Of a DNA stretch of 64,000 nucleotides, positions 35,119-42,620 are shown one piece after another. Source of the DNA: Apostichopus japonicus (lineage: Eukaryota; Echinodermata; Holothuroidea; Aspidochirotida; Stichopodidae); contig NC_092569.1 in NCBI RefSeq assembly GCF_037975245.1, forward strand, positions 12,637,001 through 12,701,000, read 5' to 3'. Position 1 is the stretch's first letter. Every line of letters begins with the position of its first letter. The position numbers and the translations under genes are program-made. Under the pieces are notes generated by a model. It did not search any database and was not told where the DNA came from. It worked only from the letters and a program-made list of their open reading frames with translations.

Positions 35119-35916
35119 GCGCTGATCCGGATATTCGCATCCTTCAGACCTTGAACACCGTTCTTAACTAGACATTGCTCAAACTGTAGCTAAAGTGAGA
35201 TGTTGGGTCTCTCTGGCCCTTTGTTCCAACCAATGTTTTGCCCTTGTTATATCGTAGAAAGTTAATTGAGAGCCCCTGGCGTAAAACAAGCAAGCATACA
35301 CTGTGCCGTCCACACAAGGTTCACAAACTCGCTAACAGAAGGCGTAGATACACTATATGTATCATGTATGTATCATTCTGTCTTTTACCAGTTTCCGAAC
35401 TACACGATAGATCGTTGATGGTACATTACTCAATTACTGCAGTATACTGTTCATTTAATTAGCTGGAATCAATTTCATTGTAAGTCAAAACTACGAATTA
35501 GTCATTAATTTTTCATTTATGATATTGGTCATTGATTGCGCAAATTTTAACACTTTTAATACAAATCAAATCTTCACACTACATCCTATTCATCCTGCAT
35601 GTGTGAATGTATAGTGGGCTGGAGAGACTGTAAGGAAAAATGCCTACACCTATCCTGAACCCCACCCCCCACCCCCGCCCTCCTCGCCATTCTCACCTCT
35701 ACCGGGTTTCACTTTGTAGCTAAAGAGTCTAGTTCAAAGGATTTGCGATTTGTGATCGAAAAATAAAGACACAAATCAAATTAGTCATATTTTCATTTCA
35801 CTTCATAGATACGAATTCTGAGCTTGATTAAACCTGTACCATAGAAACGTCTTCCTTCGCCACCAAAAACGGTGTTTATTTATAGCCCCATGATGTAATA
35901 GCCTGGAGAGTAAGAC

Positions 35917-36104
35917 TTTTCGGCCTTTTGGCTAAGATCATGTGTAGTATCTGTTCCCTTTCGAGGGAATGGTGATGTACACCCGACGATGATCACACAG
36001 TCACAGTCCCGATGCAAGGGGACTGGGATTGAGAGCGGATCAGTCGTTCTGTAGTTTGGTTCTCGTGCCCAGGTTCTTCCCTGGGCGACTTTTCCTTAAA
36101 AAAA
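35917..36104 (+). mobile_element. SINE with a U2 snRNA-like 5' head, 188 bp
   Basis: Starts TTTTCGGCCTTTTGGCTAAG and continues to GTAGTATCTGTTC, matching about the first 45 nt of U2 snRNA. The remaining roughly 140 nt is unrelated to U2 and ends in an A-rich tail. It is flanked by 22-bp direct repeats (35895-35916 and 36105-36126, one mismatch, GTAATAG...GAGTAAGAC), so it was inserted by retroposition. Confidence 0.8.
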
Positions 36105-36126
36105 GTAATAGTCTGGAGAGTAAGAC

Positions 36127-36290
36127 ACAGTAAAACCTAAGGTTTATTGGTGGATAAACCCGGTTTATTAGTTGATAATCCAGGTTAATCATCCGAGGAT
36201 CCAGGTTTATCGGCCGAAAACCTGGATTCTCCAGTCGACCACAAATGTGGGAAAAACCCGCAAGGGCTTATGGATTACAACTTACACGTC
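36127..36290. repeat. Degenerate CCAGGTTTATCG-type repeats
   Basis: GGTTTATTGG...GGTTTATTAG...CCAGGTTTATCGGC clusters, resumed at 36500-36630 on the other side of a tRNA-SINE. Confidence 0.6.
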
Positions 36291-36294
36291 GGGT

Positions 36295-36497
36295 GGCTTC
36301 CAATTCAATATTTTAACTCAAATTTGGAATCTTTTCAATTTAGAAGTCATTTCAGATGGGAAAACCGTAGATTGTTCTTGGATGAAAAACCCACCTTACT
36401 ATGACCCGGCCGGGAATCGAACCCCGAACCTCCCGATTGCTAAGCCTCATTGCTTCATATGCGACCGCCTTTATCCACTCGGCCACAGCACCGGTAT
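36295..36497 (-). repeat. tRNA-derived SINE (family 3)
   Basis: The minus strand reads GCTGTGGCCGAGTGGATAAA ... GGTTCGGGGTTCGATTCCCG: a tRNA-Leu/Ser-like head with A and B boxes, followed by a body ending GGGTTTTTCATCCAAGAACA. The long tail makes a functional tRNA unlikely. Confidence 0.75.
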
Positions 36498-37528
36498 TAT
36501 CGTCTGATAAACCTGGTTTATCAAAATTATTTTGATAAATATGGATTCTCGACTGACAATCCAGGATTATCGGCGACAATCCAGGACTATCGTTCGATAA
36601 ACCTGCAGATTATCAACCTTCAAACCGGGGTTTTCGATTTGTTGGGCATTTGGGTTGTCATAACTTTTAGCCCGCAATCACAATATACGACAATGAGTCA
36701 GTCTGAAAAGAAACAAACACCAACCTTTATTGTGAAAAACAACCCTTACCGATTCATGAGTATGAACAAGGGGAACCACCGCGTTAATCAGAAAATATGC
36801 AAATATGCACATACAAGCAAAAGTGCTTGTTCAAACGTATTTGGTGACGAAGTTTACCTTCGACCCGACCACGTATATAAGAAAACAAGTATACAGCGGC
36901 TTTTATTCACTTTTAAAACTAGACACATTTATGTTTCATAGGCCTTGTCAAAGGATATGTCTATGTACGTCAGGCTGCCATGAGTTGATTTATTAACTAA
37001 TAAAATAAATCAAAAGTGACATTTGAAAGTTGAAAGTTTCCATCCAATGAGGAGTCAAGAACGACGAAACGTAGAATATTTTGTACAGTTTTGAAACTAA
37101 TATTTATATTCAGCATTTTCTCCAACCAATGATAATCCGTTCTCACTAAAAAAAATTTTATTTTATTTTTTATAATTCTTACATCATCACATCAAGCAGG
37201 GGTTCGAGCGCATTCAAGATACTAATTTCGATTCCAAATGACTGACTTTTCGAAACCTCAGTATAGGACACGTGTTGTTCAATTTGAATGATGTGGTCAA
37301 ATGATGGGGTGGTGATGCTTATAGGCTGTCCGGCATATTTGGTTGTTTTCTTCTTTGCCTGCCAGATACGACGTTTTGTTTGTTGAGGGAGAGGGTGGGG
37401 GGGGGGGGTTAAACCTTACATTTCCTAATAGCTCACGTAAATGAAATGTTTGACACCCAAAGGTAAAGGAGAGTTATTAATTGTTCCGTTCCTTGAATTT
37501 TAAATCTTTTATTAGAAACATATAGGTT

Positions 37529-42270: not shown

Positions 42271-42505
42271 CATTTGCCTTTGTCGTTTACCTCCATTTCA
42301 TTAACATAAAGTCTGTTCAAAGTATCTCTTTCGAGATCCGGCAGTAATCACTAATAATTTCGAGTTGGTTAGCAACATGTTTGATCTCTAGAGTAAGGCA
42401 AAATATGTCACCAAAAACAGAACCAGTATTATTCGATACAGGTGACAAACGCCTACAGTGGAATTACGACCTTCCTTACCGGTTTCGAACCTCTGGACAA
42501 TCAGC

Positions 42506-42620
42506 GTCCATAGCCTAGTGGTTATGGTGTCCACGTACAGAGCGGGAGGCCCGGGTTCGAATCCCGGTGGAGGCTGGAAGTTTATTCACTGTTCTTGATT
42601 TTCCAACTCATTACGATTTC

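Follow-up and report, generated by a model that had tools for sequence, protein, structure and literature searches.

The DNA analysed here, referred to as the window, is a stretch of 64 kb (C9:12637001-12701000) from a genome of 671.6 Mb in 35 contigs. It contains a single SINE copy, an insert at 35917-36104 flanked by 22-bp direct repeats that read GTAATAG(C/T)CTGGAGAGTAAGAC and lie at 35895-35916 and 36105-36126. The insert and its flanks are made up as follows:

35895..35916, + strand: 5' target-site duplication, 22 bp, pairing with 36105-36126 with one mismatch
35917..35956, + strand: U2-derived head corresponding to U2 nt 6-45, 5' truncated by 5 nt relative to full-length copies, which begin at nt 1 (comparison with Rfam U2 and host U2)
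35947..35956, + strand: GTATCTGTTC, equal to U2 nt 36-45, a stretch that flanks the SINE body on both sides in U2 genes and in SINE-in-SINE insertions
35957..36097, + strand: non-U2 body, type A (comparison within the SINE family)
36067..36086, + strand: 3' hairpin GCCCAGG...CCTGGGC, upstream of the tail (predicted fold)
36098..36104, + strand: A tail of 7 A, after which GTA comes next in the family (sequence)
36105..36126, + strand: 3' target-site duplication, 22 bp, starting with GTA (repeat match)

The first-pass annotation had described a head from the start of U2 snRNA, a non-U2 body and an A-rich tail, all between 22-bp duplications, and this description was borne out by a head that equals the host's U2 at 39 of 40 bases, by the tail of seven A and by repeats with one mismatch between them. 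The best Rfam family for the insert was U2 (42.2 bits, E 2.7e-6); the score lies under the curated cut-off of 46 because only the 5' part of U2 is present. Both the host U2 and the SINE head have a T where the Rfam U2 consensus has an A, and the identity of the head with the host U2 rules out a chance similarity. Another RNA family in the body was also rejected, the next Rfam hits for one copy (L028) having E values of at least 0.63 and scores far under the cut-offs.

Other features of the window lie near the insert or further downstream. Related AGGTTTAT/AACCTGG-type repeats, found in both orientations, adjoin the insert at 36126-36260 and recur at 36490-36635. A tRNA-like sequence with a long variable part at 36402-36492 (- strand; 20.4 bits, under the Rfam cut-off) is perhaps the head of another SINE. 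A tRNA-Cys-like gene is located at 42503-42576 (+ strand; ARAGORN anticodon aca; Rfam 45.8 bits at 42504-42575).

A dispersed SINE family headed by U2

Searching the genome for the type-A head-body junction (up to 3 mismatches) gave 1,224 places, and for the body core (up to 3 mismatches) 1,906 places, with 0 for the reversed-pattern control in both cases; since the junction pattern is that of type A, the count of 1,224 leaves out type B (types are described below). A first look had given 2,141 candidates, 40 of which were scored and resulted in 41 matches, namely 40 near-full-length copies (the window copy included) and one tail piece. The near-full-length copies are spread over many contigs, with identities of 100% for the window copy and 94-96% for the others. 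These three genome-wide counts rule out a single copy or one-off chimera.

Three samples of loci were used to describe the family. The first (L001-L030) was selected for likeness to the window copy. The second (L052-L111) comprises 60 of the 79 regions prepared from 100 listed zero-mismatch type-A junction places, after seven places of a tandem cluster on C5 and the last 14 listed places had been left out. The third (L112-L131) consists of 20 regions around exact body cores absent from the junction list. Two loci were sampled twice (L014 is L073, and L018 is L091); they were counted once in recounts and twice in the promoter survey of 110 loci, in the survey of duplications and targets and in the comparison of body types.

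The copies are short, non-coding and dispersed in large number, with target-site duplications and a tail. Flank duplications scored at least 10 in 14 of 30 copies, compared with 3 of 870 mismatched flank pairs used as a control. The 3' end was intact in 100 of 108 distinct loci, and among these 100 the 5' start fell at consensus nt 1-6 in 61 and beyond nt 45 in two. Loci picked on the body core alone (L112-L129) carried the U2 head sequence in 17 of 18 cases, the remaining one being 5' truncated. Since the head-body junction, the flank duplications and the tail recur in many dispersed copies, these copies form a distinct snRNA-headed SINE family, as the first-pass annotation had proposed for a repeated element; a single genomic copy or a U2 part always apart from the body, the two outcomes that it had named as refuting its proposal, are not what the genome contains.

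In two loci (L004 and L136) the U2 head is partly doubled, a head piece being followed by a fresh head start, which suggests that synthesis jumped at its 5' end. Eight exact SINE junctions lie on one strand at C5:11042402-11066008 with a spacing of about 3-4 kb, and the SINE there seems to have been caught in a larger tandem repeat.

The 3' ends and targets of the dispersed copies carry traces of U2. The tail was intact in 80 of 88 distinct copies, and in these the A-run was followed by GT in 60 and by GTA, which is U2 nt 36-38, in 51. Among 50 distinct duplications scoring at least 8, the letters between the A-run and the duplication start with G in 29 (GT in 12, G in 11). Each duplication was extended as far to the left as the best match allows, so that these intervening letters are absent from the target; the template supplied them, or they were added while the copy was being synthesised. 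When 40 targets were aligned on GTA, the places of U2 nt 38-41 were occupied by A in 30, T in 21, C in 17 and T in 20 targets (one-sided p of 7e-9, 0.003, 0.0008 and 0.007, respectively), and the dispersed targets thus resemble the A/TCT of U2. This signature may in part reflect primer-template pairing instead of endonuclease choice.

SINE and LINE insertions in the U2 genes

The U2 genes of this genome are found in a tandem array on C16 (645-bp unit) and as further genes on C15. Consensus nt 1-45 of the SINE match U2 nt 1-45 without a difference at each of the 12 U2 loci compared. With 60 uninterrupted target sites (56 on C16 and 4 on C15), the U2 units that carry a SINE are a minority. The CTTAAAAAGTATCTGTTCTTTTCAG pattern (up to 2 mismatches) occurs at 8 places genome-wide, against 0 for the control: 6 are in the U2 array, 1 is a decayed U2 copy on C20 and 1 is a SINE cluster on C5. 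In the six array units the SINE body sits at U2 nt 38/39. One unit has the U2 promoter and U2 nt 1-45 (with a single altered base), continues with the SINE body and TTAAAAA, and then runs into GTATCTGTTCTTTTCAG, where U2 resumes from nt 36. The SINE head corresponds to the upstream half-site of the place in the U2 genes at which the element inserts, which makes a random RNA chimera unnecessary.

The array insertions differ in structure. Three units (31059288, 31132305 and 31133748) are seamless at nt 45. In unit 31134546 the SINE is 5' truncated and flanked on both sides by GTATCTGTTCTTTTCAGC; in unit 31006763 the SINE, also truncated, follows the 3' end of a LINE and shows the GTATCTGTTCTTTTCAGC duplication as well; and unit 31021625 has two SINEs stacked. 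Five units with a U2 head show 0, 0, 0, 0 and 1 mismatches to an intact unit over the 250 nt upstream. The truncated copies have duplications of 15-18 bp and no head-body junction, and are for that reason best read as insertions. Counting three distinct truncation points plus the seamless class, at least four separate insertions took place, not necessarily seven; U2 array units may be copied together with their insert, which would multiply insertions, and the assembly of a tandem array may be imperfect.

An alternative origin for the U2-gene copies is exchange with dispersed SINEs across the common 45-nt head, by gene conversion or by recombination and with no insertion into U2. Arrays homogenise, such exchange could make the three seamless units, and the seamless copies may possibly have been smoothed by conversion. 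It would not give truncated units with 15-18-bp duplications, which exclude conversion as the sole origin of the array copies; one of these units stands behind a LINE end, and only a few bases are common to the 3' side and U2. We consider this origin very unlikely.

A different alternative takes the chimeric U2-body RNA to be the product of a functional host small RNA gene with dispersed retrocopies. The predicted fold of the insert strand is strong (z -4.0, beaten by 1 of 200 shuffles), the U2 promoter is intact, and the SINE consensus keeps GTAGTA, which we take to be the stretch of U2 that pairs with the branch site. The array copies, however, differ in structure, two being truncated and one stacked, and copies insert into one another, so that a host gene of this kind deserves hardly any credence.

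Insertion of copies into one another is seen at the SINE-SINE junction CTTAAAAAGTATCTGTTCCC, which places a SINE at the U2 site of another SINE's head; it was found at 12 places (up to 1 mismatch; control 0), one of them in the U2 array (L138), and 8 of the 12 were inspected. At L135 an older type-A SINE has a truncated type-B body inside its head, flanked on either side by GTATCTGTTC; at L133 a type-B SINE lies within the head of an old type-A SINE; and at L132 a short SINE tail alone precedes the site. Four others (L134, L139, L140 and L141) are dimers, each of a single type, that possibly arose by slippage. Another stack was observed at C2:21947327-21948627 (L130), where at least six SINE pieces, each ending in AAAAAGTATCC, follow one another head to tail in a CCTATCC-rich spot, as a result of repeated hits on a regenerated target.

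The SINE copies of the array are type B, with the short loop CCCTTAGGG or CCCTCGGG where present and a GGGTGAC end. The 17 dispersed type-B stretches differed from one array copy by a median of 0.65%, and four of them showed no mismatch; some were taken from tandem junctions that had been deliberately sought, and the share of type B in the sample is therefore not representative. Type-A stretches (109) had a median mismatch of 3.2% to the type-A consensus, and in the body-core sample the values were 1.1% for B (8) and 4.9% for A (16). As type B is the least diverged, the U2 genes now hold the youngest lineage sampled. None of the array pieces examined contained type A, to which most of the sample belongs. 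Movement probably went from the array to the rest of the genome.

The U2 site used by the SINE is also occupied by LINEs with an APE-type endonuclease. Their 3' ends at this site read ...CTTGAAAGAAA(A) followed by GTATCTG and ...ATTAAAAGAAA followed by TCTGTTC. A domain scan found Exo_endo_phos and RVT_1 in two ORF2 proteins and a CCHC knuckle in two ORF1 proteins; the two scanned ORF2 proteins carry the APE-type domain in place of the restriction-like endonuclease of Utopia. Insertion at the U2 site together with an APE-type endonuclease is what characterises Keno, and by their sequences the resident LINEs therefore look Keno-like. On C16, at about 31.00-31.17 Mb (L034-L051, L138 and L142), several LINE families with long open ORF1 and ORF2 are found at the U2 site, and their 5' side is joined to U2 at nt 25-31 in some and after nt 45-50 in others.

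The first-pass annotation had also proposed comparing the SINE tail with resident LINE 3' ends, and here no match was found in the LINE 3' ends examined. The SINE body and hairpin gave only short matches of chance size to the sequences of the U2 LINEs examined, ruling out kinship of the body with these LINEs, and a genome search for the exact SINE tail without a SINE upstream gave 0 places.

A probable SINE lineage of the U2 array

We consider it probable that the family is a passenger of U2-targeting LINEs, that is, a non-autonomous SINE lineage that lives in the U2 array and is inserted at nt 38/39 by target-primed reverse transcription. Its cycle would begin with a body inserted at U2 nt 38/39, the site of the resident LINEs. 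The U2 promoter would then make an RNA of the form U2(1-45)-body-A(n)-GTA, which the U2-targeting LINEs would reverse-transcribe in trans. At a U2 gene, the cDNA would pair through its head with the upstream half-site; because the two match, full-length copies would join seamlessly and truncated copies would leave duplications. The presence of both forms in the array leads us to infer that joining is driven by homology. Elsewhere in the genome the copy would land like any other SINE, carrying a U2 head but lacking a promoter. The head would thus act at once as start site, as target and as homology arm.

The simplest source of the RNA would be a resident copy driven by the U2 promoter. Such an RNA would start at U2 +1, the position where the longest copies begin. 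The 110 dispersed loci surveyed showed no likeness to the U2 promoter. The element has a weak A-box (5/6), a weak 9-residue B-box (5/7) and three TTTT runs, and these sequences are compatible with some weak use of Pol III. The further proposal that the element is a homing SINE, whose head guides it back into the U2 genes and whose full-length residents are transcribed master copies behind the U2 promoter, seems to us evenly poised between true and false.

The ordinary alternative is a SINEU-like SINE in which a U2 fragment and the body were joined by template switching, and which a non-specific LINE moves, copies in U2 genes being rare accidents. It accords with the fact that nearly all copies are dispersed (1,224 junctions or 1,906 cores against 8 U2-type places) and that many targets are only loosely U2-like. 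It does not account for a head that ends at the insertion site of the U2 LINEs, for several structurally different insertions at one U2 site, or for the U2-site signature in the ends and targets of dispersed copies. This explanation is already weakened, and we regard it as unlikely.

Under the homing proposal, SINEs in general may owe their snRNA heads to a body that landed at a LINE target site within an snRNA gene, and not to an RNA chimera. The family bears on how a snRNA-headed SINE gains its head from a gene with an external promoter and is later transcribed. In this genome the gene array, the resident element and the dispersed offspring are all visible, and the head-body joint coincides with a LINE target site, so that head capture, supply by master genes and joining by target homology become directly testable. 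Our search of the open-access literature brought up no SINE described as living in U2 genes, and the present family adds a SINE to the few elements known from snRNA genes.

Comparison with known systems

In crocodilians, SINEU elements have heads from U1 or U2, and their partner LINEs belong to the Tx1 group, which is also the group of Keno. SINEU was reportedly described by Kojima in 2015, and we know of no case in which it resides in U2 genes. SINEU shares with the present family a head from an snRNA gene; the difference is that the present head consists of U2 sequence from the host itself, reaching to the LINE target site, and that copies are found within U2 genes. The name SINEU is applied to SINEs with an snRNA-derived head (PMC8010984, PMC7245038, PMC5753468), and Repbase classes SINEs by the origin of their head (PMC5753468). 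With consensus nt 1-45 equal to host U2, the present SINE is, as judged from the sequence of its head, a SINEU in the sense of Repbase.

According to the portions of PMC4640811 available to us, Keno (with an APE endonuclease) and Utopia (with a restriction-like endonuclease) use one U2 site, U2 resumes at nt 39, and one Utopia has a tandem insertion in U2 genes; these portions mention no SINE partner for either. The SINE lies at their U2 site, and the array LINEs resemble Keno in their APE-type endonuclease. Keno and Utopia are, however, autonomous LINEs, whereas the SINE is non-autonomous and mostly dispersed.

The closest known system by way of life is that of the R2 SIDEs and R2/R1 hybrid SIDEs, which PMC3414825 presents as short non-autonomous elements, moved by LINEs, at the site of a LINE in a multicopy RNA gene. 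The SINE is likewise a short element at a LINE's site in such a gene. SIDEs, as presented there, consist of LINE ends with a ribozyme at the 5' end, whereas the SINE body is unrelated to the LINEs examined, the host gene itself forms the element's 5' end, and more than a thousand copies are dispersed through the genome.
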